Shown here: positions 2,271-43,265 of the stretch, one piece after another | Position numbering within the stretch: position 1 is the first letter of the stretch | Layout of the letters: each line of letters opens with the position of its first letter | Assembly (NCBI GenBank): GCA_903901045.1 | Contig: CAIUPP010000080.1 | Location: forward strand, 1-46,570 | Source: an uncultured Planctomycetota bacterium | Lineage (GTDB): Bacteria > Planctomycetota > Brocadiia > CAIUPP01 | Direction of reading: 5' to 3' | DNA length: 46,570 nt | Position numbers and translations under genes: made by a program | The notes under the pieces: model-generated | The model's input: the letters and a program-made list of their open reading frames with translations, nothing else | What the model was told of the DNA's origin: nothing | Database searches by the model: none

Positions 2271-2293
2271 CCCATGGACCATCGGGAGAGCAT

Positions 2294-6031: not shown

Positions 6032-6050
6032 GCTATACGAGGTATCATCT

Positions 6051-9089: not shown

Positions 9090-9965
9090 GTGGCCCCAGG
9101 AGAAATGAATGGCTCGTGCCTCTCACGGTTGAGAGCGAAGGTGCGGGACGGGTCCGCGGCCGGCCGCAGGATATCCCAGGTGATCTTGGATTCGTCGGCC
9201 CAATGGCGCGACGTGCCCATTGCCACTCTGGCGAAGGCGTGCGGCGTTAATCCCTCTACCATCACCCGCTTCTGCAGGGGGCTGGGCTATCGGAGCTACA
9301 AAGGATTTCAACTCGACCTAGCCGTGGCGGCGGCGCAGCCGGATTCCTTGAAAAGCAACGACCTTTTCAAGGGGTCTACTCCGACGACCATCCGGCGCGC
9401 GGTGTTCGAGAGCAACCGGCGTAGTTTGTTGGAAACGGAGAAGCTCCTCGATGACCGCGTGCTTGACCAGATCTCTGAGTTGCTTCGTCGATCGCGCCGT
9501 ATTTTCTTTCTGGGCATCGGATCCTCGGGCCAAGTGGCGCATCAAGGAGCGGATCGGTTCATGAGCCTGGGCCTGTCAGCAAATGCCGTCACCGATCCCT
9601 ATGAGCAGATTTTTGCGACGGCGAACACAAGCCGAAGCGACGTGGTGGTGGGAATCAGCCACACCGGCCTAACCGCGCACGTCACCGAAGCCCTCCGCAT
9701 GGCGCGCGACGGCGGTGCTCGGACGGTGTGCATTACGAATTATCCGGATTCCCCCATCGCGGAGGCGAGTGAGTTTTGTCTGATCACATCTTTTCGGGAG
9801 CACCGCATTAATGCGGCGGTCTCTTCCTCGCACATTGCGCAATTGTGCGTCATCGACACGCTGTATTTCCTTGTGGCGAGTTCGTTGGGCAGGCGCGCGC
9901 GCAAGCTTGCTGACAGTGCCGAAGACCGTGTGCAGAAAATGCTTCGGGCGAAGAATCATTCTTGA
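9090..9965 (+). CDS. RpiR-family transcriptional regulator (HTH + SIS)
   Basis: A 291-residue RpiR-type regulator. The N-terminal HTH_6 domain covers roughly residues 15-80, with IATLAKACGVNPSTITRFCR as the helix-turn-helix and GYRSYKGFQLDL after it. The SIS domain covers about 120-255 and begins RRIFFLGIGSSGQVAHQGA; SIS domains bind phosphorylated sugars. The GTG at 9090 is preferred because GGAGG sits eight bases upstream; an ATG at 9105 has poorer spacing. It is the first gene after the promoter and 27 bases before the RuBisCO-like gene, so it probably controls the operon in response to a sugar phosphate, perhaps the kinase product or a later intermediate. Confidence 0.9.
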   Translation: MAPGEMNGSCLSRLRAKVRDGSAAGRRISQVILDSSAQWRDVPIATLAKACGVNPSTITRFCRGLGYRSYKGFQLDLAVAAAQPDSLKSNDLFKGSTPTTIRRAVFESNRRSLLETEKLLDDRVLDQISELLRRSRRIFFLGIGSSGQVAHQGADRFMSLGLSANAVTDPYEQIFATANTSRSDVVVGISHTGLTAHVTEALRMARDGGARTVCITNYPDSPIAEASEFCLITSFREHRINAAVSSSHIAQLCVIDTLYFLVASSLGRRARKLADSAEDRVQKMLRAKNHS

Positions 9966-9992: not shown

Positions 9993-11342
9993 ATGATCAC
10001 GCGGTACTATGATCCGGAAATATTCGTGCAGACGTTTGACGGCATTGACCGGGCTAACCATATTGTGGCCACCTATTACATGGACGACGTCTTACCGGGC
10101 GAGGACTTCATAGACCATTTTGCGCTGATCCAGGCGATGGCGCTGGAAGGTTCGACAGGCACGTGGGAGAAGGTTGCCGAGGACACCGAAGAGGTCCGCA
10201 AGAAGCTGAGCGGCAAGATGGTGAATTACTTCGAGGTCCCCAGCGATGACCCGTTCCGGCGCAAGGCCGTTGTCCAACTGGCGTTTCCGATAGATGCCTG
10301 GGTGGACAACGTTCCCATGATGCTCCTGAGCATTGCGGGCAACTGCTTTGCCTACAGCGACAAGCTGCGGCTTCTCGACGTCTATCTGCCGGACAACCTT
10401 CTGGCGAAGTTCAAGGGGCCGAAGTTCGGCGTGCCGGGAATCCGGAAACTCACCGGCGTCCAGGGACGGCCGCTGTCCCTCCACATCATCAAGCCGAAAA
10501 TGGGCATGACGCCGAAGCAGGTGGCCAACCAGTGCTACCAGACCGCCATGGGCGGCGTGGATATGATGAAGGACGACGAGATGACGTCCGACGTCTACAA
10601 CAGCACCTATGAGGACCGGCTCAAGGCCGTGATGGAGTCTCTCGAAAAGGCCAAGGCGAAGACGGGGAAGAAGCCGATCTACTTGCTGAGCATCACCGAC
10701 GAGCCGCGACGAATCTTCGACAAAGCCCGGCGCGCGGTCGAACTGGGCGCCAACGGGCTTCTGGTCTGTTACTCGGCCGGTCTTCCAGTCCTGCGGCAGT
10801 TGGCCGAAGACCCCGCGATCAACGTGCCGATCATGCTGCACTGCTCGCACATGATCGCCGCGCAGCCACGCATCGCGTGGCCGGTCTTCGCCAAGCTCAT
10901 CCGTGTCTGCGGGGCGGACATGATGCTTACACCGACCTACTGGTCGAGCATCCCGATGGCCAGCCTCGAAGAAGGTATCCGCACCTCGCACGTCAAGCTC
11001 GCGCCGATGGGCCACATCAAGCCGATGTTCCCCATGCCCTGCGCGGGGGTCTACCCCGGTCTGGCTCCGATCATCATCGGCGAGTACGGGCCGGACATCG
11101 TCATTCCGGCCGGCGGCGGCATGCTGGGCCACCCGGATGGCTACACGGCCGGCGCCAAGTCCTGGCAGCAGGCCATTGCTGCCGCCATGTCGGACGAGGA
11201 CTTCATCGAGTACGCCAAGAAACCGAAGAACAAGGAACTGCGGCGCGCCCTGGAAAAGTGGGGTTACATCGAGCGGCCCAAGACACCGTGGCTCCGCATT
11301 GCCCCGAAGTTCCATCCGAAGCGGATGAAGTTCGACGCGTAA
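9993..11342 (+). CDS. RuBisCO-like protein (form IV type), not a carboxylase
   Basis: A 449-residue protein with the RuBisCO large-subunit fold. The C-terminal barrel begins at the KPKMGMT motif (Lys167, Lys169). The metal site MMKDDE is complete: Lys193, the lysine carbamylated in RuBisCO, with Asp195 and Glu196. LHCSH (283 region) and the phosphate-binding GGG at 374-376 are present. Loop 6, where true RuBisCO has the essential lysine, reads LTPTYWSSIP, so carboxylation is not expected. RuBisCO-like proteins enolise sugar phosphates or decarboxylate and isomerise branched acids; examples are 5-methylthioribulose-1-phosphate isomerases and enzymes of apionate catabolism. The start ATG follows GGTAGGAG. 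The rhamnulokinase-like gene directly downstream suggests a ketose 1-phosphate substrate; this is inference. Confidence 0.88.
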   Translation: MITRYYDPEIFVQTFDGIDRANHIVATYYMDDVLPGEDFIDHFALIQAMALEGSTGTWEKVAEDTEEVRKKLSGKMVNYFEVPSDDPFRRKAVVQLAFPIDAWVDNVPMMLLSIAGNCFAYSDKLRLLDVYLPDNLLAKFKGPKFGVPGIRKLTGVQGRPLSLHIIKPKMGMTPKQVANQCYQTAMGGVDMMKDDEMTSDVYNSTYEDRLKAVMESLEKAKAKTGKKPIYLLSITDEPRRIFDKARRAVELGANGLLVCYSAGLPVLRQLAEDPAINVPIMLHCSHMIAAQPRIAWPVFAKLIRVCGADMMLTPTYWSSIPMASLEEGIRTSHVKLAPMGHIKPMFPMPCAGVYPGLAPIIIGEYGPDIVIPAGGGMLGHPDGYTAGAKSWQQAIAAAMSDEDFIEYAKKPKNKELRRALEKWGYIERPKTPWLRIAPKFHPKRMKFDA

Positions 11343-11369
11343 CGTTTGTTTTCAGCGAGGCCCAAAACA

Positions 11370-12845
11370 ATGGCACCATCACGTTTCCTGGCCTTCGATA
11401 TCGGCGCAGAGAGCGGCCGAGCGGTCGTGGGAACGCTTGATTGCGGAAAGCTGTCGCTGGAGGAAATCCACCGGTTCCCGAACGAGCCGGCGGAGGTGTG
11501 CGGCGTCCTGCATTGGGACGTCCTGAGCCTGTACGACAACGTGCTCAAGGGACTTGAAGCGTATGTACAGCGGTTCGGCGACTCCGTGGATGGAATTGGC
11601 ATCGACACGTGGGGAGTCGACTTCGGCCTCCTGGCCCGAGACGGTGCGCTCCTTCAGAGCCCGGTGCACTATCGAGATCGCCGGACGACCGGGATGCCGG
11701 AGCAAATCCTCCGGAAAATCTCACCGGAGAAGGTCTTCGAGCGGAGCGGCCTGCCCCTGTCCCGAATCGACACGCTCTGCCAGATGCTATCCCTGCGGCT
11801 GAACCACAGCCCCGTTCTGGATTCGGCGGCGACGTTTCTAATGATGCCGGATCTTCTCGCGTATTTTTTGACAGGTGTGAAGCGCTGCGAGCGCACGAAC
11901 GCGGCGACGACGCAGCTTTACGACGTTCCGGCGGGCCGGTGGAGCGACGAGATGTTCCACCTCTTCAATCTGCCGCGCTCGATCATGCCAGAGATCGTGG
12001 ACCCGGGCGCGGTGCTGGGTGAACTGAGCGAATCGGTGAGGCGGGGCTGCGGCCTGTCGGAAGGCATCGTCATCGCGCCCTGCACACATGACACCGCCTC
12101 GGCAGTGGCGGCCGTGCCGGGTCACGGCGACAACTGGGCGTTCATCAATTCCGGAACATGGTCTATCATCGGGGCGATGACGGAGCGACCCGTCGCGTCT
12201 GCTGAGGCGTTCACCGCCGGGCTGTGCAACGAACTCACGCTTCAGAGTTTCTTCCTGTGCCACAATATCATGGGGCTGTGGATCCTTCAGCAAACCCGCT
12301 CGTCCTGGGCGCGTCAGGGCGAGATCTATTCGTATGCGGAATTGGCGCAGTTTGCGGAAAAGGCGCAGGCCGGGGGGCCGTTGATCCGGCCGGATGATCC
12401 GAGCTTCCTGGCCCCCGCCGACATGGTTGCGGCCATTCGGGACTACTGCCGTAGGACGGACCAGCGCCCGCCCGAAGGGCCGGTCGCCGTCACGCGGTGC
12501 ATTCTGGAAAGCCTGGCGTGTTCCTATCGCCTCACGCTGGACGCGCTCGGGCGAATCCTGGGCCGCCGGTTCGAGGTCCTTCACATCGTGGGAGGTGGTT
12601 CGCTGAACACGCTGCTGTGCCAACTGACCGCCGACGCAACCGCTCTCCGCGTGGTGGCTGGCCCTGTGGAAGCGACCGTCTGCGGGAACGTTCTCGTCCA
12701 GGCCATGGCACGGGCCGCCGTCGGTTCGGCGCTGGAGATTCGGGACGTGGTGCGAACGTCGTCGGCCTTGGTCGAGTACCAGCCGCGCGGCGCCGGGCCA
12801 TCGCTGGAGCTTTACTGTGGTCTTTCGACGCGCACAGAGAGTTAG
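11370..12845 (+). CDS. rhaB: L-rhamnulokinase-like FGGY sugar kinase
   Basis: A 491-residue FGGY-family kinase that follows E. coli RhaB closely in layout and in motif wording. The N-terminal phosphate-1 loop is DIGAESGR (10-17), substrate-side motif GIDTWGVDFGLL, MPDLLAYFLTG and TNAATTQL in the middle, catalytic base Asp241 in THDTASAV, phosphate-2 motif NSGTWSI and adenosine motif VGGGSLN. RhaB phosphorylates L-rhamnulose to L-rhamnulose 1-phosphate, in the cytoplasm. The ATG at 11370 follows GCGAGG and is preferred to an in-frame TTG at 11346. The usual partners RhaA and RhaD are not recognised in the window. The closeness to a RuBisCO-like protein is unusual for this kinase. A related ketose could be the true substrate. 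Confidence 0.85.
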   Translation: MAPSRFLAFDIGAESGRAVVGTLDCGKLSLEEIHRFPNEPAEVCGVLHWDVLSLYDNVLKGLEAYVQRFGDSVDGIGIDTWGVDFGLLARDGALLQSPVHYRDRRTTGMPEQILRKISPEKVFERSGLPLSRIDTLCQMLSLRLNHSPVLDSAATFLMMPDLLAYFLTGVKRCERTNAATTQLYDVPAGRWSDEMFHLFNLPRSIMPEIVDPGAVLGELSESVRRGCGLSEGIVIAPCTHDTASAVAAVPGHGDNWAFINSGTWSIIGAMTERPVASAEAFTAGLCNELTLQSFFLCHNIMGLWILQQTRSSWARQGEIYSYAELAQFAEKAQAGGPLIRPDDPSFLAPADMVAAIRDYCRRTDQRPPEGPVAVTRCILESLACSYRLTLDALGRILGRRFEVLHIVGGGSLNTLLCQLTADATALRVVAGPVEATVCGNVLVQAMARAAVGSALEIRDVVRTSSALVEYQPRGAGPSLELYCGLSTRTES

Positions 12846-12996
12846 ATCGCATTCTTCCATCAGTGACGAGGAGACAGCGCATGAATCCGGTGCGTGAGAA
12901 GAGTTTCAACCTGAGCGAGTTAGGTCGCACTCTTCCATCAGTGACGAGAAAACAGCGCATGGATCCGTTACTTGAGAAGATTTTCAACTTGAGCGA
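12841..12996 (+). repeat. 78-base tandem duplication carrying a ribosome-binding site and start codon
   Basis: 12841-12918 and 12919-12996 match at 68 of 78 positions. Each copy contains the end-of-kinase motif GTTAG, a ribosome-binding region and an ATG (12881 and 12959). The period is 26 codons, so both starts are in the same frame. The first copy has GACGAGGAG before its ATG; in the second this has become GACGAGAAA, a weaker site. Confidence 0.9.
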
Positions 12997-14293
12997 TGCG
13001 GACCGTGCGGAGTGCGCCAAGCACGTCATGCTGGGCGGCGGGACGCGCGGCGGCCCTGTGATTGTCCGGGGCGAAGGCATCCGGTTGTACGACACGACAG
13101 GCAAGAGCTACATAGACTGCACCTCACAGAGCTGGGCCATGTACCTCGGATTCGCCAATGAGGCCATCAACCGGATCGTCGCCGAACACATGCAGAGCCT
13201 CTCCCACGTCCATCAGGGATTCGACACACTGCCGCGGTACTACTTGGCACGGAAGCTGGCGCAACTGGCGCCGGGCGACCTCAATCGCGTCTCGTTCACC
13301 GTCGGTGGCGGCCCGGCCATCGAGGCGGCCATGAAGATCGCCTACAAGAACACGCAACCGTCTCGCGATTTCATCTGCCTCTACGACAGCTACCACGGCA
13401 CGACCCTGGGCACGATGGGCGCCTCCTGGATCTCCACGCGGTCCGCCGGCAAACTCGCCGGTGGCAGCCGGTTCCTTGGGCTGACACGGCCGTTCATCCG
13501 CGTCCCGAATCCATACTGCTATCGCTGCCCGTTGGGCTTGAGCCGCGAGAATTGCTCCCTGGCCTGCGCCCAAGCGCTTCGAGTGACGCTGGAGAAGGGC
13601 ATCGCGGGCAATGTGGCCGGCCTCATTGTCGAGCCGATTCAGGCCAGCGGCGGCCAGATCATCCCGCCGAAGGAATACCTTCAGGCCGTCCGGCGGATTT
13701 GCGACGAGTTCGGCGTGCCGCTCATTTTCGACGAGATACAGACCTATGCGCGGATCGGACGCTTTTTTGCCGCGGAGTATTTCGACGTGACGCCGGACAT
13801 CATTGTGCTGGGAAAGGGCTTCGGTGCGGGTCTGCCCATCGCGGCCATCATCATTTCGGACCGCCTCACGGGGTTTGAGCAGGACGGCGAGGAGCTTCAC
13901 ACCTTTGCGAACTCGTCTGTTGGTCAGGTGGCCGCCGCCAAGCAGATTGAGCTTCTGGAGAACGGCATCCTTGACAACACGGCCCAGATGGGCGAGTACC
14001 TGCGCGCGCGCCTGGAGGAGATGCGGAACGAATTTCCGGAGATGGGAGACATCCGCGTCGCCGGGCTGCACGTCGGAATCGAATTTGTGCGTGACCCGCG
14101 GTCGAAGGAACCCCTGAACGCCGAAGGCAAAGCGATCCGCGACGAAGGGATCAAACTGGGCGTGATTTTCGGCCTGGCCGGCGTCCGCACGAACGTCTTG
14201 AAAATCAAGCCGCCGCTGATCGTCACGCAGGCGGAGTGCGACGAGATATTGGACAAGCTGCGCAGCGCTATGACGCGCGTGCTGCGGCGTTGA
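12881..14293 (+). CDS. Class III PLP-dependent aminotransferase
   Basis: A 470-residue fold-type I, class III aminotransferase (the family of 4-aminobutyrate, ornithine and dialkylglycine enzymes). Visible marks are the GG-x-AIEAAMK cofactor phosphate region, YDSYHGTTLGTMG, the DEIQT aspartate that contacts the pyridine ring, and the Schiff-base lysine Lys312 in VLGKGFGAGLP. An insertion with YCYRCPLG and NCSLAC adds a cysteine-rich loop. The amino donor and acceptor cannot be told from sequence. The start at 12881 has the better ribosome-binding site; the ATG at 12959, in the second half of a 78-base duplication, was probably the ancestral start. The preceding stop is 35 bases upstream. In this operon it might aminate a keto sugar or its degradation product. 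Confidence 0.85.
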   Translation: MNPVREKSFNLSELGRTLPSVTRKQRMDPLLEKIFNLSDADRAECAKHVMLGGGTRGGPVIVRGEGIRLYDTTGKSYIDCTSQSWAMYLGFANEAINRIVAEHMQSLSHVHQGFDTLPRYYLARKLAQLAPGDLNRVSFTVGGGPAIEAAMKIAYKNTQPSRDFICLYDSYHGTTLGTMGASWISTRSAGKLAGGSRFLGLTRPFIRVPNPYCYRCPLGLSRENCSLACAQALRVTLEKGIAGNVAGLIVEPIQASGGQIIPPKEYLQAVRRICDEFGVPLIFDEIQTYARIGRFFAAEYFDVTPDIIVLGKGFGAGLPIAAIIISDRLTGFEQDGEELHTFANSSVGQVAAAKQIELLENGILDNTAQMGEYLRARLEEMRNEFPEMGDIRVAGLHVGIEFVRDPRSKEPLNAEGKAIRDEGIKLGVIFGLAGVRTNVLKIKPPLIVTQAECDEILDKLRSAMTRVLRR

Positions 14294-14305: not shown

Positions 14306-15115
14306 TTGACTTCGATTGAAGAACAGATCAAGGAAATGGCGGACCGGAGACGCGAGGTAGCTGAAAAGCTCCGGTTCTTCGACGCGGGCATCTGGCTGGG
14401 AGAGCCGGCCGGATTTCCTCTCGCCCACGAGTTGCCGCTTGGACGGTTGGGCGAAGCGCTCCGAGAGCGGTTCCTCTCAGGCGGCTTGGTCTCGCACTGG
14501 TACGGCAAGGTTTCGGCCCAGGATGGGAATGCTGTTCTGATGCAGGCCATGGAGGGATGTCAGGAAGATGTCTATGCCGCATGGACCGCGCTGCCTCTCC
14601 TGCCGGGCGAGAGCGGGCGGTTGCCCGGAGCGGGCTCGGTTCCCAGCAAGGTGAAAGCGGCGCGCATTTTCCCCAAGACGCACAACTTCTCGCTGACTTC
14701 CTGGTGCGTCGGCGGGCTTTGCGAGTGGCTTGTGAGTCGGCATATGCCCCTGTTCATCTGGCATGTCGAGACGGACTGGAAATCCGTGTACGAGCTTGCC
14801 CGGACATTTCCGAAGCTGGAGATCGTGGTCGAGACGCAGACGCAGAAAATCCTGTACCACACGCGGCCGGTCTTCGCGCTGATGTGCGATTGCTGCAACG
14901 TGCGCCTGGAGCTATCCAATTTTGCTGGCCAGGGCTTCATCGAATACGCCGTCCGCGAATTCGGCGCCGAGAGGCTGATTTTCGGCTCCTTCCTCCCGGT
15001 GAACGACCCGCTGGTTCCTATGGGCATGATCCTCGACGCGAAGATATCCGAGACCGAGAAATCCCTTATCGCCGGCGGCAACCTGCGGCGGATCGTGAAC
15101 GAGGTGACGTCATGA
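14306..15115 (+). CDS. Amidohydrolase-fold protein lacking metal ligands
   Basis: A 269-residue protein related to the one encoded right after it, with the amidohydrolase-2 TIM-barrel pattern but a damaged active site. Where the partner has DAHAHH, this one has FDAGIWLG (26-32), so the HxH pair is gone. Where the partner has GSDAPW, this one has GSFLPVND, so the barrel-end aspartate is gone. A histidine in FIWHVETD is kept. It is therefore probably not a metal-dependent hydrolase; a structural or regulatory subunit of its partner is likely. The TTG start at 14306 has GAAGGGA at suitable spacing and no better start is present. The stop overlaps the partner start by ATGA, so the two are translated together. 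Confidence 0.7.
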   Translation: MTSIEEQIKEMADRRREVAEKLRFFDAGIWLGEPAGFPLAHELPLGRLGEALRERFLSGGLVSHWYGKVSAQDGNAVLMQAMEGCQEDVYAAWTALPLLPGESGRLPGAGSVPSKVKAARIFPKTHNFSLTSWCVGGLCEWLVSRHMPLFIWHVETDWKSVYELARTFPKLEIVVETQTQKILYHTRPVFALMCDCCNVRLELSNFAGQGFIEYAVREFGAERLIFGSFLPVNDPLVPMGMILDAKISETEKSLIAGGNLRRIVNEVTS

Positions 15116-15906
15116 GCGACGCATTCATTGTTGACGCCCACGCGCACCACGGACGCCCGGGCGCGTTCTTCGCGCCTGAGTCGGAGCCGGAGGCCCTGCT
15201 GAAGCTGATGGACCAGTTGGGAATCGAACGCGCCATCGGCACGGACCATGTGTCCGTTTTCGAAGGATGCGAACGGACTCTCCCGATGCTGCGCAGCGTC
15301 TTCGAGCAGTCGGGCGGCCGTCTGCATTACCTGGCGGTCTTCAACCCGAAGCGTGCCTCCGGTTGCGTGGAAGCCCTGAAACAGGCGATGAACTGGCCAG
15401 GATTTGCGGGGTTGAAGATCCATCCGTCGTTTCACGGCGTGTCCGCTGAAGACGCGCGGTACGAACCGGCATGGCGGTTCGCCGCGGAGCGGGACGTGCC
15501 CATCCTCACGCACAGTTGGAGCGCCTCGGACTACAACCCGGCTCAACAGCTTTCGACGCCGGGGCGGTTCGAGCCACTGGTCGGGAAGTTTCCGAAAGTC
15601 CGTTTGGTGCTGGGCCATGCCGGAGGCCGCGGGGCGGGCAGGCATGAAGCCGTCCGTCTGGCGCGCGACTACGAGAATGTGTTCCTCGACCTGGCCGGCG
15701 ACATTTTCTGCTATCGGCTGGTCGAGAGCCTGGTGGATTCCGTTCCCGTGGAGAAGATACTCTTCGGGTCCGATGCCCCGTGGCTGGACCCGCGCAGCCG
15801 CCTTTCGCACGTGCTCTTGGCTGATGTCCCGGCCTCGGCCAAGGCGAGAATTCTTCGCGAAAACGCGCTTCACGTCTATCGCATTGGAGCGAAGAAAACT
15901 TGCTGA
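15112..15906 (+). CDS. Metal-dependent amidohydrolase-2 family hydrolase or decarboxylase
   Basis: A 264-residue amidohydrolase-2 protein with all expected ligands: His10 and His12 in DAHAHH, LKIHPSF (His104), THSW (His134), LGHAGG (His169) and Asp221 in FGSDAPW. The family includes lactonases, hydrolases and non-oxidative decarboxylases of small organic acids. Lactone opening of a sugar lactone is a reasonable guess in a sugar-oxidation operon, but the substrate cannot be read from the sequence. The ATG overlaps the stop of the degenerate partner gene (ATGA), and the stop overlaps the next gene by seven bases, so expression is tightly linked on both sides. Confidence 0.82.
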   Translation: MSDAFIVDAHAHHGRPGAFFAPESEPEALLKLMDQLGIERAIGTDHVSVFEGCERTLPMLRSVFEQSGGRLHYLAVFNPKRASGCVEALKQAMNWPGFAGLKIHPSFHGVSAEDARYEPAWRFAAERDVPILTHSWSASDYNPAQQLSTPGRFEPLVGKFPKVRLVLGHAGGRGAGRHEAVRLARDYENVFLDLAGDIFCYRLVESLVDSVPVEKILFGSDAPWLDPRSRLSHVLLADVPASAKARILRENALHVYRIGAKKTC

Positions 15907-16673
15907 CGATTGACCTCAAAGACAGCGTGACTCTCGTCGTTGGCGGATCGCGCGGAATCGGCGGTGCCATCACGCAAGCACTGGCCGCAGCCGGAGCGAC
16001 GGTCACGTTCACGCACACCGGCGCTGCGCAACGACAGGACCAGGTCGCGGCGCTGGTCACCGCGATCCGGAAGGAGGGCGGTCGGGTTGAGGCTGTGGCA
16101 CTGGATGCTTGCGACGCCCAGAGGACGGCGTCCGTTGTGGACGCACTCGCGCGGGAAAGTGGACGGATTGACCTCTTGGTCCATAACGTCGGCCAGAATG
16201 CGGCCCGCCCCGCGGAGCAAGTCACCGACGAGGACTGGACGCGGTTCCTCGACATCAATCTCACCTCCGCCTTCAACAGTGTCCGCGCGGTCCTGCCGCA
16301 CATGGTCAAGGCGCGTTACGGACGGATCATTCTCATCGGTTCGTCCGCCGTCTATTCGGGCGGTGGCGGCGCGATCGACTACGCTGCCGGAAAGGCGGGA
16401 CTGACGGGAATGATGATGTACCTGTGCAGAGAATACGCGCGGAAAGGCATCCTGACCAACATCATCCATCCCTGCGTCATCGAGACCAATCTGCTGCGCG
16501 AGCGGTATCGCGATGGCGCGGCGCGGCAAAAGCTGGTTGCGCAGATTCCAGTTGGCCGCCTGGGCAAGCCTGAGGATATCGCCGGACTCGTGGCATATCT
16601 GGCGAGTCCGTGGGGCGACTATATCTGCGGCCAGTCGGTCCTGCTCGATGGCGGCCGCACATTCTTCCAATAG
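15900..16673 (+). CDS. Short-chain dehydrogenase/reductase
   Basis: A 257-residue classical SDR. The nucleotide motif is VGGSRGIGG (14-22), the structural HNVG replaces the usual NNAG, the catalytic serine lies in IGSSAVYSG and the YxxxK pair in DYAAGKAG. The C-terminus DYICGQSVLLDGGRTF matches the family end. The TTG start is supported by GGAGCGAAG just upstream and by the position of the Rossmann fold ten residues later; the gene overlaps the amidohydrolase by seven bases. It probably oxidises or reduces a hydroxyl of the sugar or sugar acid handled by this operon. Confidence 0.85.
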   Translation: MLTIDLKDSVTLVVGGSRGIGGAITQALAAAGATVTFTHTGAAQRQDQVAALVTAIRKEGGRVEAVALDACDAQRTASVVDALARESGRIDLLVHNVGQNAARPAEQVTDEDWTRFLDINLTSAFNSVRAVLPHMVKARYGRIILIGSSAVYSGGGGAIDYAAGKAGLTGMMMYLCREYARKGILTNIIHPCVIETNLLRERYRDGAARQKLVAQIPVGRLGKPEDIAGLVAYLASPWGDYICGQSVLLDGGRTFFQ

Positions 16674-16695: not shown

Positions 16696-17670
16696 ATGAG
16701 CGATGACTTCAAGTTGGCTTCAAACCTGGCCCCGTTCTCCCGCTTGAGCGATCGTTTTGTGCCGACTGGATATTGCGCCGGCCTGAAAATGGACAAGCAA
16801 CTGGAGAGACTCTCGAAAGTGCGCGGGATCTCCGGGACCGGCTTTGCCTGGCCGGGGCCGTTCAAGCGAGGGCGGGATATCCGGAAGGCGCTCAACCGGC
16901 ACGGTCTCCGGCTCTGCACGCTGGATACCGACATCTACACCGACCCGATGTTCAAGTACGGTTCGCTCTCGAACCGAGATCCCAAGATCCGGCGCGCCGC
17001 CATCGCCCGCGCGAAGGGGGCCATGGACGCCGCGCTGGAAGCCGGCTCGCCGGACATTAACTTCTGGATGGGGCACGACGGCTTCGAGTATTTCTTCCAG
17101 GGGCACTACGCCGACGCTTGGAATTGGATCGAGGATGGACTGCGGGAGATCAGCGAACATGAGCCTTCTGTGCCGATCAGCATCGAGCCGAAATGCAAGG
17201 AACCTCGCGCCAACTCCTACCTGGCCAACATGGGCAAGGCGCTCCTCCTGGTCAACAAGATTAACAAACCGCACGTCGGCGTCACGCTGGACTTCGGGCA
17301 CAGCCTTGCTGCGCTGGAGAACCCGGCCGAGGTCGCTGTCCTAGCCCACCGCGAGGGCCGACTTCAGCAGATTCACTTGAACGACAATTACCGCGACTGG
17401 GACCATGACCTGATTCCCGGGGCTGTCAACGTCTGGGACCACGTCGAGTTCTTTTACTGGGTGCGCAAGCTCGGCTACAAAGGTTGGTTTGTCCTGGATA
17501 TTTATCCTTACCGGGACGAGGGCGTTGAAGTGCTGAAGCGCAGCGTGCAGGTCTGCCAGAAATGCCGCCGCATGGCGGACAAACTCATTGAGATGAACGT
17601 CGAGCAGCTCCAGCGGGATGGGCGACATCTGGAAGTGATGCGGCTGCTTTGGGATATGGTGGGCGATTGA
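16696..17670 (+). CDS. Xylose-isomerase-like TIM barrel protein (sugar isomerase or epimerase family)
   Basis: A 324-residue AP-endonuclease-2/xylose-isomerase-type TIM barrel. Metal-binding candidates are the glutamate in ISIEPKCKEP, the aspartate and histidine in TLDFGHS, the HLNDNYRDWDHD segment and the final acidic strand DIYPYRDE. The family interconverts aldoses and ketoses or epimerises ketoses in the cytoplasm. As the isomerase next to a rhamnulokinase-like gene it could replace RhaA by turning L-rhamnose into L-rhamnulose; this is inference. The ATG at 16696 follows GAAAGGA. A paralogue lies at 45206-46192 and a deleted copy follows immediately downstream. Confidence 0.78.
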   Translation: MSDDFKLASNLAPFSRLSDRFVPTGYCAGLKMDKQLERLSKVRGISGTGFAWPGPFKRGRDIRKALNRHGLRLCTLDTDIYTDPMFKYGSLSNRDPKIRRAAIARAKGAMDAALEAGSPDINFWMGHDGFEYFFQGHYADAWNWIEDGLREISEHEPSVPISIEPKCKEPRANSYLANMGKALLLVNKINKPHVGVTLDFGHSLAALENPAEVAVLAHREGRLQQIHLNDNYRDWDHDLIPGAVNVWDHVEFFYWVRKLGYKGWFVLDIYPYRDEGVEVLKRSVQVCQKCRRMADKLIEMNVEQLQRDGRHLEVMRLLWDMVGD

Positions 17671-17692
17671 AGGGCTGCCTTGGAGGGAAGCC

Positions 17693-18109
17693 ATGCTGGC
17701 AAACCATAACATCGGCGCATGCCTGCCGACGTTCAGAAAACGCGGGGACCGCTATTGCCTGAACGGTCATGGCGGCGGGAAGACCATGCAGGAGATGCTG
17801 GACCTCACGAAAAAGGTCAAAGGCTTGGACGGCCCAAAGATGGTAGGCGACGTCCGCCTTGTTGAATACATTGAACTCGCTTACTGGCTCAAGCGCCTCG
17901 ACTACAAAGGCTGGCTGACGCGGGGCATCTTCCCCTACCGTGAGGATAAAGTCCCGGCGGCGACACACACAATGCTGCGAATGGACAGAGGTGTTTTTCC
18001 GGGCAGTGGAGCGTACCGAGATGAGGGAGGTCGGTTCAAGAATATAATCTCGTGCTTGCAAGGCGCCTGTCCTTTGGAGGACGGGCAAGTGAGAAGTCCC
18101 TGTTATTAG
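17693..18109 (+). pseudogene. Internally deleted copy of the isomerase-like TIM barrel
   Basis: The frame opens with GGAGG and an ATG at 17693. About 50 residues match the N-terminus of the family (GDRYCLNGHGGGKTMQEM, compare the start of the 45206-46192 protein). It then jumps in frame to the end of the family: VEYIELAYWLKRLDYKGW and FPYRED. Roughly 190 internal codons are missing, including all metal ligands except the last strand. After about residue 92 the sequence no longer resembles the family and runs on to a chance stop. It cannot be a working isomerase. The joint lies at a Val-Gly present at both ends of the missing part in the paralogue, which fits recombination across a short repeat. 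Confidence 0.7.
18043..18090 (+). promoter_or_regulatory. -10 box and hairpin leader before the prepilin-like gene
   Basis: A perfect TATAAT lies at 18043-18048, without a convincing -35 box. It is followed by a leader whose segment 18055-18090 can fold: CTTG pairs with CAAG outside, and CCTGTCCT pairs with AGGACGGG around a TTGG loop (one G-T pair). The ribosome-binding site of the next gene lies 15-20 bases after the hairpin. There is no T tract, so it is not a terminator. It could be a simple mRNA-stabilising or regulatory leader. Confidence 0.45.
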
Positions 18110-19590: not shown

Positions 19591-19875
19591 TTCACCGCCG
19601 CAGACGCGGGCCTGTTGGCATATCGTGAGTTGGACGAAGCGATGGGGTTGACAGTGATGGCGGTAGAAGACTCACGGTCTTGAGGAAGGGAGCACCGTTA
19701 ATGGCATACCGCCATGTGGACGGCGGCTATCTGAAGAATTCGGGCGATGAAGGTATTCTCCGAGAAAGGACGGGACTGATTGATGGAAACATCGATAGAT
19801 TTCCTGTGCGGACTCCCTGGCGTATCGGGATGCGCTAAGACGCATGTGCGAAGGCAAATCTGGGGAGGGAGAGCG
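19591..19875. other. Intergenic leader, no gene seen
   Basis: 285 bases between the prepilin-like gene and the lyase-like gene. A TTGACA occurs at 19648-19653, but no -10 box lies at the right distance. No hairpin with a T tract was found. The promoter of the lyase-like gene is probably here but was not identified. Confidence 0.4.
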
Positions 19876-22800
19876 ATGTTCAGGACTGGACTTGCAGTCG
19901 TGGTCGTGTCGGTCATCGTGGCATGGGCCGGCGTGCGATGCGCGGCAGCGGCCGAACCCGCAAAGGACGCGGGCAAGACGACGGTGCGATTCTCGGAGGA
20001 CTACGGCAAGGGTGAGGGCAAGGTTGGGGAGTCGAAAATATGGAAACAGGTCGACTTGGCGGCGTACAAGGACTGCACGCTGAAGCGGGAACTCACGGAC
20101 GACGCCCTGGTCTTCACCTGTCCTCCTCCGCCGGAAAACACCCGTGGCTTCGGCTTCCTGGATGGAAACGTGGGCGCGGCCAACGCGGAGCTGCCGCTCA
20201 CTCTCGAGATGCGCATGAAGTGCTCCTTCACGCCGCGCGGCATGGTGCAGCTTTACTACTGCTTCAAGCCGAACGGATGGCTGGTCACCTGGGACGAGAA
20301 CGGCGTCTCGAGCCCCGGCGCCCCGGACAAGGTTCTGAAGGTGAATACCACGGAGTGGCAGACCTATCGCCTGGTGGCGAAGAGCGCCGATGACGTTCGC
20401 ATATTCGTCGAGGGTGTTCCCGGCAACGGCTTGGCGATCCCGAGCTTCAAGCATGAGGGCAAGTATTTCCAGTTGCGCGTCTGCCGGGCCGGCGGTTTCG
20501 TGGAAATTGACCGCAGCACCCTGAGCGCTGGAGCGGTCTCGGCTGCCGGGCCGGCGCCTGTGGCCGCCGATGACCTCCGAACCGTTCGCGGCGACGAGAA
20601 ACCGTTGGTCGCGCGACAGGAGTCCCGGATGAATATGAAGCAAACCGGCGACTCTGTCGAGGTTGACACCGGGGGCATGCAGTTCACCCTCGATCAGCGC
20701 ACCGGCGCGCTGAATCAGCTTTCCATCGGCCCGAAGACGGTGATTGCGGCGAACTCCGTCCCTCCGCTTTTCGCAACGCTGATGGAAAGCGCCGCTTACG
20801 ACGGTGCGGTCGACTACGCTCCCCGGACGATGCTGCCCGGCAAATATACATTCCGAGGCATTCAGCCCAAGGTCACCGAACAGGAGTTCTCGGCCAGCGG
20901 GCAAGGGACCATCGAGTTTCCCGGAGGCGACGCCATTGATTTCACGCTGACCTGGACGGCGGCCAAGGACAGCTCTCACCTCAAGACCGCCGTGTCGATC
21001 AATCCCCGGGGCGAATTCCGGAACCGCTTCATACGCGAAATCGGCTTGCGTCAGCCCCTGAGCCTGAACTTCCGCAAACGCGTCATGCAGGCGGGCGATC
21101 AGGGGATGTGGTGGGACACTCGATATCATTATGACTTCACCAAGCACGTGGTATTCTTCGAACACCCGGACACGAACTGGTGGCGGCATTTCTACGTCGA
21201 CCAGGACACCGACCATAGCTATGGCCTTTGGCGCTCGGAGAGCGAGGATACGAGCGGGCTGTACGCCTTCCGGGGGCGCAAGGCGGCCGGTTGGGTGATG
21301 GCCTACGACGAGACCGGCGGGGCGCTGATGGCTTGCCGCCAACTGGCGGAACGCGCCCCGAAATGCCTTTACGTCAACGCCGACGGCGGCGCGGAAGGCG
21401 TGCTCTATCTGCATGGCCCGATGCACGCCGCGCGATCCATGAACGATCCGGCTCTCCGCAAGTCGCTCTTCGGCGCTGCGCACGAGGTGGACTGGGTCTT
21501 CTTCTCCGGCCAGCAGGAATTGGAGCAGCCGGACCGCGTCCTGGCGAAGGCCTGGGGCGTTACTGCGCTGCCCAGCGACGGCCCGCTGAAGTTCGCCCCC
21601 GTGGACGACGAGATCAACCTCCTGAACGCCGGGGAGGCGCAGGGCTCGCTGGCGCCGCTGGTGGCGGGCGGAGCGCCGTTGCCGCGCGGCGCGGTAAAGG
21701 ACGCCCGCAACGTGCGTCTCTTCGTGCGCGGACAGGAGACGCCCGTCCAGGCTCAACCGCTGGCGTATTGGCCGGATCGGTCTGTCAAGTGGGTGCTGCT
21801 GGTCTTTCCGCTCAACGGCCGGGGCGGGTACGGTTTCGAACCCGGGACGGGGGAAGGGGACGAGACGGCCTTCCGCGTGACATTACGCCAGGGCGAACCT
21901 GTGCCCTGTGCGCTGAAGTACGGAGTGAATGTCAAGCCCGGGAAAGTGACCTCCCCTCTTTCCGCCAAGATCGATGGCGACGCCGTGTCCATCGAGACCG
22001 GACCGCTCTCAATGCGCTTGGGCAAAGGCGAGCAATGGCTGTCCGAAGTGAAGCTTGATGGGAAGCCGGTTTTGCGCGCCGACAAAGCGCCTCAGGCGTA
22101 CGTTGACTTCTTCAGGCCCGCAGGGGTCTATCCGGTGGGAACCACCCACCCAGAGGGCGCGCTCGATCCTGGTCCGGTCCAGATTGAAAAGGTCGAACTC
22201 GAGGAATCCGGCTCGCTACGGACCGTGGTGCGGCTCGAAGGACGCGCGATGGCACAGGAACCTGCGCGCGTGATCCTGCGGCTGGAGGCTTACGCCGGAA
22301 AGCCTTTCGTTCGGCTCTACTACACCACCGAGTTCATGCAAAGAGACCCGCGCCAGGTTTTTGTACGACGGATGGGGCTTCGCCTGCCGCTGGCTGCGCA
22401 GGGCGGGATAATCGCGACCGTCGCGGGTGGACAGGGTGGCCCTGTGGCGCTGCAACCGGCGGCGGTTACCGGCTTGCAACAAACGAGCCATCTCAATTAT
22501 GAGCTTTGGCAGGCAGAGCGCGACCATCCCTGGCGCGAGGTGCGGGAAAGCGGCTTCCGCTCGCGCGGATGGCTCTCCGCCGGCGACACGCAGGCCGGCA
22601 TGGCGGTGGTTGTGCGCGACATGTGGCAGGAGTTCCCAAAGGAACTCGTCTTCCGGCAGGAAGACGGGGCCTTCGAAATCGGCCTCTGGCCGGAGAACGC
22701 CCCGCTGATGGATGTGCGGCGCTACTCCAACTATGGCCATATAGGCCAAGGCGAGAGTGCGGGGGAAGATCCGAGCTGGGTTGTCGACCGGTACTACGCG

Positions 22801-24309
22801 AAGGATTTCGCGAGGGGTCCGTTCGTCGGCGTCAGCAAAACGGATGAACTGCTGCTGCTCTTCCATCGCGGCGCGTCGCCGTCACAACTGGATGCCGTGG
22901 CGGCAGACTTCCAGAGCCGGCCGCTGGTCTACGCGGGGTGGGATACCTATGCGCGCACCGGGATCACCATGCCGATGAACTCGCCGGACGACCCAAAGTT
23001 CGCGCGATTGAACGCCAACCTGATCAATGCCGCCGACTGGTGGCTCTTCCACCAGCGCTGCTATGGATGGTACGGCATGTGGAACTACGGCGACGTCCAG
23101 CATATGTTCCATGGCGGTTACGGACAAATCTACACCTCGGACGCGCTGGCGAAGATACTGCAACTCCCCGCGGCGAAGCGCACGCCGGAGAATCTTAGCG
23201 GGTACGCCGCGAAAGCTGATTACTTCTGCCAGAACGACTGGGCCTACGATAACGGTCGCTGGGGGTGGGGCAACACGGAAGGACTGCCGAACCACTTCAT
23301 GTCGCTGAGCTACCTGCGCACCGGAAGACGGGATCTCTTCTTCTTCATGGAAGCCAACGCCCGGCATTCGCGGGACGTGGTCGCGCGCCATGCGGGTGGG
23401 TGGCTCGGGGCGGGTACGCGCCACGGCGTGCAGCCCTGGAGCGACGGCAACCACGAGGAACGCCAGACCGTCTTCAGCGAGCAGCGCTTCCACTACCTGC
23501 TGACAGGAGAGCATCGAACGCGCGAGTGGATTCGAGCCCTTGCGGAAAAAGTCTATCTCGTGTCACCGAGCAACAACTATGCCGCTCACTGTGCACGCAG
23601 CTACAATCTACTGTTCTTCTGGGAGATCACCGGCGATCCCGACGTCGGCGCGACACTCCAACAGTACATGCACTGTCTGGCGCAACCCGAGGGGATTGTC
23701 GTCAATGCCAACGTGAGGTTCCCGCAGGGGACCCTGATCGACAAGTCGGGCGTCCCCCATGTGGCCAACTGGATGTTCACCAACTTCGGCGCCATGCACG
23801 CCATGCTCGAGTACTACTACCTCACGCAGGACGCGCAGGTGCGCGACGCCTTCCTGCACGAGGCCGAGTTCATTCTGAAGACGGAGAACCCGCCACTGGA
23901 TAAATCATACGGTATGATGAGCAAGGTAATGGCCTTCGCCGCGCGCCACGCGCCGGATGGGACCCCTTACCGGAACGCGATTCGGGAGTGGATGACCGGA
24001 TTCGGACTGCGCCGTGCCTTCCAGGCGGTCACGACAAACCGGGCGCACTGGGCCGGCGAAACGGCTTTCTTCGGCAGCGGTCTGGTTTCCGCCCAATTGT
24101 TCTGGCTCAACGACGCGATGTACGTGGCCGGGGCCCTGCCGGAGGAACCTGCGCTCACGCCGAAGGATCTCGCGGCGTTCAAGCAAGCTGAGGACCGTCC
24201 TGTTATCGCGCGACCGAGGGCGCCCAGGGACAGTTGGCAGAGCGAATACGACCGTCCGGAGTTCAAGGAGTATTTCAAGGAACACCTAAGGCCGGAAACC
24301 GGGAAATAG
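19876..24309 (+). CDS. Secreted PcRGLX/YetA-like (PL26-type) rhamnogalacturonan exolyase-like protein
   Basis: A 1477-residue protein with a signal peptide (MFRTGLAVVVV to about residue 27, cleavage near AAAA-EP). Residues about 30-240 look like a beta-sandwich, LamG-like domain. A beta-rich region follows to about 570. Near residue 575 a PcRGLX/YetA-type domain begins: APLPRGAVKDARNVRLF, then PLAYWPDRSVKWVLLVF. The central sandwich follows, then a C-terminal alpha/alpha toroid with WNYGDVQHMF, GWGNTEGLPNHFMSLSYL and FFFMEANARHSRDV. This order matches exo-rhamnogalacturonan lyases of PL26 with an added N-terminal half. It would release unsaturated galacturonosyl-rhamnose units outside the cytoplasm. 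The ATG at 19876 has GGGGAGGGAG before it and starts the signal peptide. Confidence 0.8.
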   Translation: MFRTGLAVVVVSVIVAWAGVRCAAAAEPAKDAGKTTVRFSEDYGKGEGKVGESKIWKQVDLAAYKDCTLKRELTDDALVFTCPPPPENTRGFGFLDGNVGAANAELPLTLEMRMKCSFTPRGMVQLYYCFKPNGWLVTWDENGVSSPGAPDKVLKVNTTEWQTYRLVAKSADDVRIFVEGVPGNGLAIPSFKHEGKYFQLRVCRAGGFVEIDRSTLSAGAVSAAGPAPVAADDLRTVRGDEKPLVARQESRMNMKQTGDSVEVDTGGMQFTLDQRTGALNQLSIGPKTVIAANSVPPLFATLMESAAYDGAVDYAPRTMLPGKYTFRGIQPKVTEQEFSASGQGTIEFPGGDAIDFTLTWTAAKDSSHLKTAVSINPRGEFRNRFIREIGLRQPLSLNFRKRVMQAGDQGMWWDTRYHYDFTKHVVFFEHPDTNWWRHFYVDQDTDHSYGLWRSESEDTSGLYAFRGRKAAGWVMAYDETGGALMACRQLAERAPKCLYVNADGGAEGVLYLHGPMHAARSMNDPALRKSLFGAAHEVDWVFFSGQQELEQPDRVLAKAWGVTALPSDGPLKFAPVDDEINLLNAGEAQGSLAPLVAGGAPLPRGAVKDARNVRLFVRGQETPVQAQPLAYWPDRSVKWVLLVFPLNGRGGYGFEPGTGEGDETAFRVTLRQGEPVPCALKYGVNVKPGKVTSPLSAKIDGDAVSIETGPLSMRLGKGEQWLSEVKLDGKPVLRADKAPQAYVDFFRPAGVYPVGTTHPEGALDPGPVQIEKVELEESGSLRTVVRLEGRAMAQEPARVILRLEAYAGKPFVRLYYTTEFMQRDPRQVFVRRMGLRLPLAAQGGIIATVAGGQGGPVALQPAAVTGLQQTSHLNYELWQAERDHPWREVRESGFRSRGWLSAGDTQAGMAVVVRDMWQEFPKELVFRQEDGAFEIGLWPENAPLMDVRRYSNYGHIGQGESAGEDPSWVVDRYYAKDFARGPFVGVSKTDELLLLFHRGASPSQLDAVAADFQSRPLVYAGWDTYARTGITMPMNSPDDPKFARLNANLINAADWWLFHQRCYGWYGMWNYGDVQHMFHGGYGQIYTSDALAKILQLPAAKRTPENLSGYAAKADYFCQNDWAYDNGRWGWGNTEGLPNHFMSLSYLRTGRRDLFFFMEANARHSRDVVARHAGGWLGAGTRHGVQPWSDGNHEERQTVFSEQRFHYLLTGEHRTREWIRALAEKVYLVSPSNNYAAHCARSYNLLFFWEITGDPDVGATLQQYMHCLAQPEGIVVNANVRFPQGTLIDKSGVPHVANWMFTNFGAMHAMLEYYYLTQDAQVRDAFLHEAEFILKTENPPLDKSYGMMSKVMAFAARHAPDGTPYRNAIREWMTGFGLRRAFQAVTTNRAHWAGETAFFGSGLVSAQLFWLNDAMYVAGALPEEPALTPKDLAAFKQAEDRPVIARPRAPRDSWQSEYDRPEFKEYFKEHLRPETGK

Positions 24310-24496
24310 AGCTTCAAGTGCGCCAGCCCGGCATCGGTCGCCTGGGTAGTGGACACGCAGAATAGAAAGCGTCCATCGCGTCGGATCAACGGTGAAGTGT
24401 TCGTTGTGCCGGGTCCGCCGTGTCCGTCGTGTCGTCGTGGTGGAAAAGTACATTCCATTGCTTTCGCGAACGTCAATAATAGAGGGAACTGACATT

Positions 24497-26882: not shown

Positions 26883-27276
26883 GAGGATTGCAGAAGTAAT
26901 GGAATGCACTTGGCGTAGGGTGGGGCCGGTTTTCAGGCATTTTCCAGCACTCAGGCATTCCATTCCTTATGCAAAGGTCAATAGGAAGCTCCCCAGAGCG
27001 GGGCGTGAGGTCGCCGTGGCATGGCAGCACATCTTGCGCCACAACGCGCACATCACTTCGGCATCGTCTACGGCACGGCGGGTTTCGTTTGTGTGCCTTG
27101 CTTCTTGCCGCCCGTAAGAGTCTCACGCTTCGGGCCGTCCCTCACACGGATGGGGGAACGACTTCACCCCGGATCGCTCGAAGCTCTCCGGATCCTCCAC
27201 CATTAGGTGGCGGGTTTCGGAACGGTAAGCTAAACGGCCGAAGGTGTCACAGAAGAAATGGAGGCGAAGCAGGCGC
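26883..27276. other. Intergenic region before the dehydrogenase operon
   Basis: No supported gene. CAGGCATT occurs at 26934 and 26952, 18 bases apart, and GGAATGC at 26901 mirrors GCATTCC at 26955; these could be operator half-sites. A minus-strand frame over about 27126-27250 has protein-like wording (HLMVEDPESF) but no start or recognisable family and may be a remnant. The promoter of the following operon should lie here. Confidence 0.35.
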
Positions 27277-28416
27277 ATGGCAATCGCGATACGAATGCCG
27301 GACTTGGGGACGACGGTTGAAGAAATCGAGCTGGTGGCTTGGCTGGTGAAAGAGGGCGACCGGATCAAGCGCGGGGACGTCATTGCGGAGATCAAGACCG
27401 ATAAAGCGGCGAGCGAACTGGAATCCGTGGCGGAAGGCGTGGTGCTGAAGCTTGTGGTGGCTCTGGGCACGGCGGCGACGAAGGGCGATGTTCTCGCTTA
27501 TGTGGGGCAGCCGGGCGAGGCGTTGCCGGACTTTCTCGCAGCCGATTCCGACGCGGGGGACGCTACCGGGCCTTTGGCCCCGCCGACGCGGGCGGCCGCG
27601 AAGGGGGCGCGGATCTCGCCGATGGTCCGGAACCTGGCCGCGAAGCTGGGCGTTGATCCGGCGACGTTGCGCGGGACCGGACAGGACGGGACGATCACGC
27701 GCGAGGACGTCATCCAAGCGAGCCAAGGCCCCACTTCACAGGCGGTGCCGGCTGAAGGTGAGAAGCTTTTGCGGTCCCAGGCGGCCGTGGCGAGGGCCGT
27801 GTTGAAGAGCGCGCGGGAGATTCCGCACCTGCGCGTCACGGCGGCGATGGAGATGTCCGCGGTGGACCGCGCGCGCGCCGAGAGCGCCAGGGCCGGCCGG
27901 AAGATCAGTTATGACGCGTTCTTCCTGAAGGCGCTGGCGGCGGGGATTCAAGCCGTGCCGTTGGTGGCGGCGCGACTGGATGGGGAGCGGCTGGTGCGTC
28001 CAACCGGGATTCACATCGCGGTAGCCATCGGGATTGAGAATGAGCTTTCCCTTCCGGTCATACGTGATGTTGACCGCAAGGGCCTCGCGCAACTGCAGGA
28101 GGAAATCGAGGCAGTCGCGGCGCAGGTGAAGTCGGGGAAGTTGGCGGGGGAGCATCTGAGCGGCGGCTGCATGACGTTGAGCAACCTCGGGATGTACCCG
28201 ATCGAGTCTTTCGATGCGATCATCTTCCCCGGACACAGCGCCATCCTGGCCCTCGGCGCAGTGCAGAAGAGGCCGATGGCCGCCGGAGACCGGATCGAAA
28301 TTCGGCCGGTGGCCACGGCGACGCTGGCGGTGGACCATCGGCTGATCAACGGGCGCACCGCCGCGTTGTTTCTGAGCAAGGTCAAAGAGGCCATTGAGTC
28401 GGGAGCGTTCAAATGA
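27277..28416 (+). CDS. Dihydrolipoamide acyltransferase (E2) of a 2-oxoacid/acetoin-type dehydrogenase
   Basis: A 379-residue E2. The lipoyl domain spans about 1-80 with the lipoylated Lys43 in IKTDKAASELES. The peripheral subunit-binding domain (ISPMVRNLAAKLGVDP, then GTGQDGTITREDV) spans about 112-145. The catalytic domain ends with DHRLINGR (353-360), which holds the active histidine His354. It accepts the acyl group from E1 on lipoate and transfers it to CoA. It is shorter than pyruvate dehydrogenase E2 and closer in size to acetoin or branched-chain types. The start ATG is 13 bases after GGAGG, slightly long. E1-alpha overlaps it by four bases. No E3 gene is seen here, so a shared E3 must serve it. 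Confidence 0.9.
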   Translation: MAIAIRMPDLGTTVEEIELVAWLVKEGDRIKRGDVIAEIKTDKAASELESVAEGVVLKLVVALGTAATKGDVLAYVGQPGEALPDFLAADSDAGDATGPLAPPTRAAAKGARISPMVRNLAAKLGVDPATLRGTGQDGTITREDVIQASQGPTSQAVPAEGEKLLRSQAAVARAVLKSAREIPHLRVTAAMEMSAVDRARAESARAGRKISYDAFFLKALAAGIQAVPLVAARLDGERLVRPTGIHIAVAIGIENELSLPVIRDVDRKGLAQLQEEIEAVAAQVKSGKLAGEHLSGGCMTLSNLGMYPIESFDAIIFPGHSAILALGAVQKRPMAAGDRIEIRPVATATLAVDHRLINGRTAALFLSKVKEAIESGAFK

Positions 28417-29372: not shown

Positions 29373-29389
29373 AAGTGAGGAGCCGGACT

Positions 29390-31324: not shown

Positions 31325-31326
31325 AG

Positions 31327-34045: not shown

Positions 34046-34092
34046 CGCCACATGCAGTCCAAAAAGTCAATTTCAGTCAAGGAGCACAGCAC

Positions 34093-36756: not shown

Positions 36757-36778
36757 TTTAATCAAGAAAGAAGAAGGT

Positions 36779-39052: not shown

Positions 39053-39137
39053 AGATTGCATGAAATGTTAACAAGGAAGGCGGGCGCTGCCTTAGGAAGA
39101 CAGTGGTGGATTGCGGATTGAAAGGTTGCCGCAGCTC

Positions 39138-43251: not shown

Positions 43252-43265
43252 GAGGAGACTGCTCC

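Follow-up and report, generated by a model that had tools for sequence, protein, structure and literature searches.

A clade of RuBisCO-like proteins encoded with a RhaB-type kinase and a TPP/lipoyl E1/E2 complex: a possible aldolase-free route for rhamnose-type sugars

We analyzed a 46,570-nucleotide stretch of DNA from an uncultured Planctomycetota bacterium (contig CAIUPP010000080.1 of assembly GCA_903901045.1; hereafter "the window") that encodes a RuBisCO-like protein (RLP) of 449 amino acids at 9993..11342 on the forward strand, with ATG as its start. This RLP belongs to a new clade whose genes lie in operons with a RhaB-type sugar kinase, a candidate TIM-barrel isomerase and the E1 and E2 proteins of a thiamine pyrophosphate (TPP)/lipoyl complex. 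Found across several phyla, the operon looks like an undescribed system for breaking down a rhamnose-type sugar without the usual aldolase. Our preferred explanation, held at somewhat less than even confidence, is that the RLP is a catabolic enzyme of the RuBisCO superfamily rather than a carboxylase, and that it would shift the carbonyl of a sugar phosphate that E1/E2 then cleaves. Judging from sequence, the substrate class, a 6-deoxyketohexose 1-phosphate, is likely, and the exact reaction is put forward more cautiously.

The RLP exceeds the Pfam cut-offs for both RuBisCO_large and RuBisCO_large_N, and in the combined Pfam and NCBIfam search it falls under the cut-off of every named equivalog. 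For instance, it scores 276 and 227 bits against two models of MtnW (cut-offs 409 and 514), 222 bits against type III RuBisCO (cut-off 497) and 145 bits against OiaX (cut-off 700). Six relatives with 67-84% identity come from Armatimonadota, Latescibacterota, Omnitrophota, Acidobacteriota, Chloroflexota and one bin without assignment. In a 25-sequence tree these relatives and the window RLP form one clade (support 100/100) that is sister to MtnW and lies outside OiaX, the carboxylases and form IV-photo. A sample of 396 genomes from Anaerolineae, the class of an Anaerolineales bin (G396), added 23 genomes with RLPs that are 51-56% identical, plus distant groups at 31-42%. When these were included in a 45-sequence tree, the close RLP groups stayed together (100/99) and the MtnW sequences fell with the more distant groups. 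Tree placement, proposed as a check in the first-pass annotation of this DNA, thus puts the RLP outside the characterized clades that could be included (MtnW, OiaX, carboxylases, IV-photo), the trees having been built without the R. rubrum-type 5-methylthioribulose-1-phosphate isomerase and several form IV clades. MtnW membership is rejected on the scores below cut-off and the separate clade, and OiaX membership by its low score, the different clade and an FGGY kinase in place of the acid-sugar-kinase partner. No further member was found among 392 sampled genomes of the window's own phylum. In a plasmid collection no RLP exceeded 60% identity, and its annotated sugar-type RLPs adjoin four-carbon acid sugar kinases.

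We next compared active-site residues in an alignment of 25 sequences that includes MtnW, OiaX-type RLPs, forms I and III and form IV-photo (spinach numbering). The first-pass annotation had read from the window that the RLP keeps the carbamylation lysine, both acidic metal ligands (MMKDDE) and the KPK motif, and that loop 6 lacks the catalytic lysine; the alignment bears out each of these points, with K193, D195 and E196 as the carbamylation lysine and metal ligands of the window protein and Ser in place of K334 in loop 6. Kept throughout the new clade are E60, N123, K175, K177, K201, D203, E204 and H294 (H283 of the window RLP), together with the C1-phosphate residues T65 (or Ser), W66, G381, G403 and G404. 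All members have lost R295 (Cys, Ala, Gly, Pro or Val instead), H327 (Leu) and K334 (Ser, once Ala). With Cys, Leu and Ser at these three positions, the window protein does not qualify as a CO2-fixing RuBisCO (forms I-III). In RuBisCO generally, K334 is the catalytic lysine of loop 6 and R295 and H327 serve the second phosphate of the substrate. The loss of K334 therefore argues against carboxylation, and the loss of the second-phosphate residues from a protein whose C1-phosphate site is intact favors a monophosphate, such as a C1 kinase would make. Taken together, the active site of the new clade fits a predicted enolization of a sugar with a single phosphate, not carboxylation. A structure predicted from seven sequences had a pLDDT of 71 and some poor active-site loops and was not used.

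The same residues bear on whether the RLP could be an MtnW-like or other thio- or deoxyribose salvage enzyme, which we regard as very improbable. MtnW is the closest named family by both hidden Markov model and tree, but its two models score far under their cut-offs, no mtn partner gene was recognized beside the RLP, and MtnW sequences have lost E60, N123 and K177, all of which are kept in the new clade. In its catalytic residues the new clade is therefore nearer to RuBisCO than MtnW is.

Directly downstream of the RLP is an FGGY kinase whose open reading frame opens with TTG at 11346; its likely start is an ATG at 11370, 28 bases past the RLP stop, giving a gene at 11370..12845 on the forward strand. 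The RhaB-like kinase described in the first-pass annotation at this distance is thus confirmed. Its best match is the rhamnulokinase model TIGR02627 at 410 bits, under a cut-off of 528 that just 3 of the 202 TIGR02627-matching genomes in the Anaerolineae sample pass. The protein carries the FGGY domains and the DTWG and HDT motifs of E. coli RhaB, and its best sequence matches in the PDB are S. pneumoniae FucK (4c23) and E. coli RhaB (2cgj). A survey of the pairing, which the first-pass annotation had suggested, finds it conserved over several phyla: the kinase directly follows the RLP in loci L001, L004 and L005 and is in the RLP operon in 12/17 Anaerolineae loci with enough sequence. This pairing is far beyond chance. 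The kinase of L023, which is linked to RhaD, branches close to or within the RLP-linked group in a kinase tree. The idea that RhaB-type kinases joined RLPs twice independently was considered when a 10-sequence tree rejected a single RLP-linked clade (AU p 0.0019); a 22-sequence tree did not reject it (p 0.157), and the claim was dropped.

The most conserved partner of the RLP is a TPP/lipoyl E1/E2 complex, a finding that alters which pathway is likely. In the window, E2 (a dihydrolipoyl acyltransferase; 27244..28416), E1 alpha (a TPP dehydrogenase; 28413..29372) and E1 beta (29375..30403) are consecutive on the forward strand; E2 is 52% identical to its counterpart in L001 and 47% to that in L004, and E1 alpha is 73-76% identical to those in L001 and L004 and 54% to that in L003. 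The Armatimonadota locus L001 encodes in order the RLP, the kinase, a class III pyridoxal phosphate (PLP) enzyme, two amidohydrolase-like genes, a short-chain dehydrogenase (SDR), two TIM barrels, E2, E1 alpha and E1 beta. The window has the same order, interrupted by a prepilin-like gene, a PcRGLX-type protein and a GH78-type rhamnosidase. In Acidobacteriota (L004) the order is E2-E1 alpha-E1 beta-RLP-kinase, in Omnitrophota (L003) RpiR-RLP-E1 alpha-Apiosidase domain-E1 beta, and in Anaerolineae usually GntR-TIM barrel-RLP-E1 alpha-E1 beta-E2-kinase. By tblastn, the TIM barrel is upstream of the RLP in 17/18 Anaerolineae loci with enough sequence, many of the genomes being fragmented metagenome bins in which several loci stop at contig edges, and downstream lie E1 alpha and E1 beta in 15/17 loci, the kinase in the 12/17 given above and E2 in 11/17. 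The RLP-linked E1 beta proteins group in a single clade (100/99), away from the paralogues that the same genomes encode, which indicates that E1 travels with the RLP; this clade includes the copy of G396, an RLP genome in which the gene does not adjoin the RLP.

Additional genes recur in some of these operons. UPF0261/Tm-1-like proteins lie near RLPs of two clades (L099, L106, L127, L128); in addition, some Anaerolineae operons repeatedly include a PEP-hydrolase-like protein (Pfam-confirmed in L106) and class II FBA-like aldolases. In L099, L101, L104 and L106 such extra genes are between the RLP and E1 alpha.

The smallest recurring set, consisting of isomerase, kinase, RLP and E1/E2, is enough to take a free sugar to an acyl-CoA. 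The choice of substrate, the shift of its carbonyl and the part played by E1/E2 are our inferences from this gene set and the active site, and we tentatively suggest an aldolase-free pathway of the L-rhamnose type. First, the TIM-barrel isomerase would form a ketose, most probably L-rhamnulose or a 6-deoxyketohexose like it, which the RhaB-type kinase would phosphorylate at C1 to give the 1-phosphate bound by the RLP. Using the carbamylated lysine and Mg2+, the RLP would then take the C3 proton, forming a 2,3-enediolate and moving the carbonyl away from C2, so that its product would be an internal acyloin. Lastly, TPP-dependent E1 alpha/beta and lipoyl E2 would cleave this acyloin oxidatively to an acyl-CoA and an aldehyde, much as acetoin dehydrogenase cleaves acetoin. 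With the carbonyl at C4 the predicted products are lactoyl-CoA and glyceraldehyde 3-phosphate, and with the carbonyl at C3 a phosphoglyceroyl thioester and lactaldehyde. Splitting of the unshifted 2-ketose 1-phosphate would yield phosphoglycolate, which would explain the need for an isomerizing RLP. This pathway is favored by the presence of the operon partners in Armatimonadota, Acidobacteriota and Omnitrophota as well, by the rhamnosidases and the PcRGLX-type protein in and around the window gene set, and by RhaW-like SDRs that lie next to LsrF in RLP genomes and have no aldolase domain.

To relate the RLP to the known aldolases, we examined co-occurrence in the Anaerolineae sample. RhaB-type kinases (TIGR02627, E up to 1e-70) are found in 23/24 RLP genomes and 179/372 others. 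RhaEW, a bifunctional rhamnulose-1-phosphate aldolase/lactaldehyde dehydrogenase (PMC3870299), is over its cut-off in 0/24 RLP genomes versus 86/372 others; among kinase-bearing genomes the counts are 0/23 with an RLP versus 82/179 (Fisher p 4e-6; all these counts are uncorrected for relatedness). In L045 and L046 the RhaW-like SDR starts inside the RhaEW linker and has no aldolase half, the RhaEW fusion of L047 continues up to the contig edge, and in L113 LsrF and a RhaEW-like fusion are beside a TIM barrel-RLP-kinase set.

The main mechanistic rival to the carbonyl shift is that the RLP is itself an aldolase. It would cut a 6-deoxyketohexose 1-phosphate between C3 and C4 to dihydroxyacetone phosphate (DHAP) and lactaldehyde, with Mg2+ stabilizing the DHAP 2,3-enediolate; the RhaW-like SDR and other dehydrogenases would take the lactaldehyde, and E1/E2 would act later on pyruvate. 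A role of this kind would account for RLP genomes that lack RhaEW and retain RhaB, and it explains well the orphan RhaW-like SDRs of the window, L045, L046 and L048; a lactaldehyde-reductase-like iron alcohol dehydrogenase and an aldehyde dehydrogenase in L103 and L094 also fit it. Decarboxylation by OiaX would also proceed through an enediolate at the same position. However, most Anaerolineae operons carry E1/E2 with no recognized lactaldehyde or lactate dehydrogenase adjoining, so that E1/E2 looks like the next step, and an aldolase would leave this nearest partner unexplained. Several RLP genomes also carry class II aldolases, and to our knowledge no aldolase is known in the RuBisCO superfamily. 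We consider an aldolase role unlikely.

Several observations weigh against the proposed pathway as a whole. The isomerases match RhaI weakly (72-76 bits, cut-off 531), and E1/E2 could be an ordinary pyruvate dehydrogenase retained in the operon. Lineage could account in part for the exclusion of RhaEW, and 74 RhaB genomes in the sample have none of RLP, RhaEW or RhaD, indicating that other cleavage enzymes exist. RhaB was not found in the 0.9 Mb bin of L003. RhaD-like proteins occur in 7/24 RLP genomes versus 37/372 others. The window's genome (G000) has a second RhaB, 47% identical, on contig 21; its neighbors there are an SDR, a PHP-like gene and a class II aldolase that resembles RhaE. In G396, too, a second RhaB is present, with a RhaD-like gene alongside. 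In these two genomes the RLP route is additional to an aldolase route. The first-pass annotation had recognized no RhaD in the window, which holds, and a TIGR02624 search found none in the window's genome. Its proposal that the RLP replaces the RhaD aldolase route stands in part: the kinase pairing is conserved and RhaEW is missing from RLP genomes, but simple replacement of RhaD is weakened in the window's genome by the second RhaB with its aldolase neighbors. Together with the RhaD-like proteins of other RLP genomes, this indicates that lack of an aldolase does not by itself explain the presence of the RLP.

A second RhaB next to aldolase genes also means that the sugar of the RLP operon may differ from rhamnose. 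The RLP could act on another ketose 1-phosphate, from a branched, methylated or other deoxy sugar of pectin, with its kinase a RhaB relative of changed specificity and with canonical RhaB and an aldolase handling rhamnose elsewhere in the genome. Such a division of labor would suit the paired RhaB and aldolase genes of the window's genome and G396, the Apiosidase-domain glycosidase in the L003 operon, the distant RLP clades that pair with a XylB-like FGGY kinase, and the gene neighbors of the L116 RLP, described below. We find this somewhat unlikely, given that the kinase sequence is still closest to rhamnulokinase, that the RhaD-linked kinase of L023 is near or among the RLP-linked kinases, and that GH78 and PcRGLX-type genes are within the window. 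The distant RLP of L116 (5930-9827; 41% identical to that of the window) is beside a phosphotransferase system (PTS) galactitol IIC gene and a zinc alcohol dehydrogenase, suggesting that its substrate is a ketose phosphate made by the PTS plus the dehydrogenase.

The remaining genes of the operon region, which lie on the forward strand from 9090 to 36756 and at 45206..46192, include many that the first-pass annotation had not listed: two RhaI-like TIM barrels, E2/E1 alpha/E1 beta, an LsrF-RPE-RhaW-like SDR group, the rhamnosidases and the PcRGLX-type protein. Upstream of the RLP is a MurR/RpiR-type regulator (HTH_6 and SIS domains; 9090..9965) with a homolog directly upstream of the RLP in L002, L003 and L006. 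The kinase is followed by a class III PLP enzyme of the aminotransferase family (Aminotran_3; 12959..14293; 77% identical in L001, 61% in L103), a protein with no Pfam match (14306..15115; 61% in L001), an Amidohydro_2 protein (15112..15906; 56%), an SDR (15900..16673; 61%) and a xylose-isomerase-like TIM barrel, the candidate sugar isomerase (16696..17670; AP_endonuc_2, weak RhaI/xylA matches, 64%). Copies of the PLP enzyme at about 40% identity also lie beside a more distant RLP clade with a XylB-like FGGY kinase (L117, L118, L119, L124, L126), so the enzyme accompanies RLPs in two separate clades. At 17690..18044 a second TIM-barrel gene survives as a remnant that has lost about 170 internal codons; it matches residues 3-57 and 228-310 of the complete copy that L001 has at this place in the operon. 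An intact second xylose-isomerase-like TIM barrel is at 45206..46192, and its homolog precedes the RLP in the 17/18 Anaerolineae loci above.

The PcRGLX-type (rhamnogalacturonan exolyase-like) protein (19780..24309; second and third PcRGLX domains) and a GH78-type alpha-L-rhamnosidase (24392..26836; Bac_rhamnosid6H) precede E2. After E1 beta come an LsrF-type thiolase (30428..31324; PRK08227, 498 bits, cut-off 297), a ribulose-phosphate 3-epimerase (RPE)-like protein (31315..32040) and an SDR like RhaW, the lactaldehyde dehydrogenase half of RhaEW, with the aldolase half missing (32046..32876; NF006194, 353 bits, C-terminal part only). LsrF copies with 67-75% identity occur in four other RLP genomes, adjoining the RPE-like protein and SDR in L045, L046 and L047, where the RPE-like gene follows LsrF, and the SDR alone in L048. 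LsrF is missing from G392 and G396 and is treated as accessory, not as an obligate step. A second GH78-type alpha-L-rhamnosidase (33988..36756; Bac_rhamnosid6H and C domains) adjoins a 768-amino-acid protein with no Pfam match (36746-39052). Three uroporphyrinogen-decarboxylase (UroD)/MtaA-like methyltransferase-type genes (39111-41350, 43248-44387) have an HpaI-type aldolase and a PGDH-like gene in their vicinity, and L005, L127 and L128 likewise have UroD-type genes beside their RLPs. To the left of the operon, a primase/helicase-like (2261-4972) and a large serine-recombinase-like (5970-7919) reading frame, both seen by eye, suggest an integrated mobile element, and a reverse-strand fragment (8284-8600), by eye like the C-terminal end of a GH3 glycosidase, is probably a gene remnant.

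Few RuBisCO-like proteins have known functions, and an operon with likely partners and a testable substrate class makes one clade tractable. If correct, our proposal would extend the RuBisCO superfamily by one reaction, give rhamnulose-type 1-phosphates a third fate alongside RhaD and RhaEW, and provide the 2-oxoacid dehydrogenase family with a new type of substrate. A full-text search of openly licensed papers, and hence a weak one, found none that joins RuBisCO-like proteins with rhamnulokinase; searching the same papers for RuBisCO with rhamnulose 1-phosphate returned just a paper on 5-deoxyribose salvage. Chloroflexota RLPs have been reported as form IV with an unclear role and no link to such a pathway (PMC8067394, PMC11650866).

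Among known systems, MtnW (2,3-diketo-5-methylthiopentyl-1-phosphate enolase, form IV-YkrW) is the nearest characterized clade in the 25-sequence tree. It shares with the new clade the RuBisCO fold, the carbamylation lysine, a single C1 phosphate and the absence of R295, H327 and K334; it differs in sequence (about 33% identity), in its loss of E60, N123 and K177, and in its partners, which in the new clade are an FGGY kinase, E1/E2 and an isomerase. The Rhodospirillum-type RLP, a 5-methylthioribulose-1-phosphate isomerase, shifts the carbonyl of a ketose 1-phosphate, chemistry like that proposed here. Its partners and the proposed sugar differ. OiaX and OiaT (3-oxo-isoapionate-4-phosphate decarboxylase/transcarboxylase), described in PMC6302742, citing Carter et al. 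2018, as RLPs of D-apionate pathways, are likewise sugar-catabolic and adjoin a sugar kinase, but they retain R295 and K334, and their kinase partners are of the four-carbon acid sugar type rather than FGGY kinases. The RhaA-RhaB-RhaD and RhaEW pathways for L-rhamnose (PMC3870299) share an isomerase, a RhaB-type kinase and, in several RLP genomes, a RhaW-like dehydrogenase with the system described here, in which the RLP and E1/E2 stand at the aldolase's place. Finally, acetoin and 2-oxoacid dehydrogenase complexes belong to the same E1 alpha/beta and E2 protein families, whereas the E1 described here forms a separate clade tied to the RLP and is proposed to act on a sugar phosphate.

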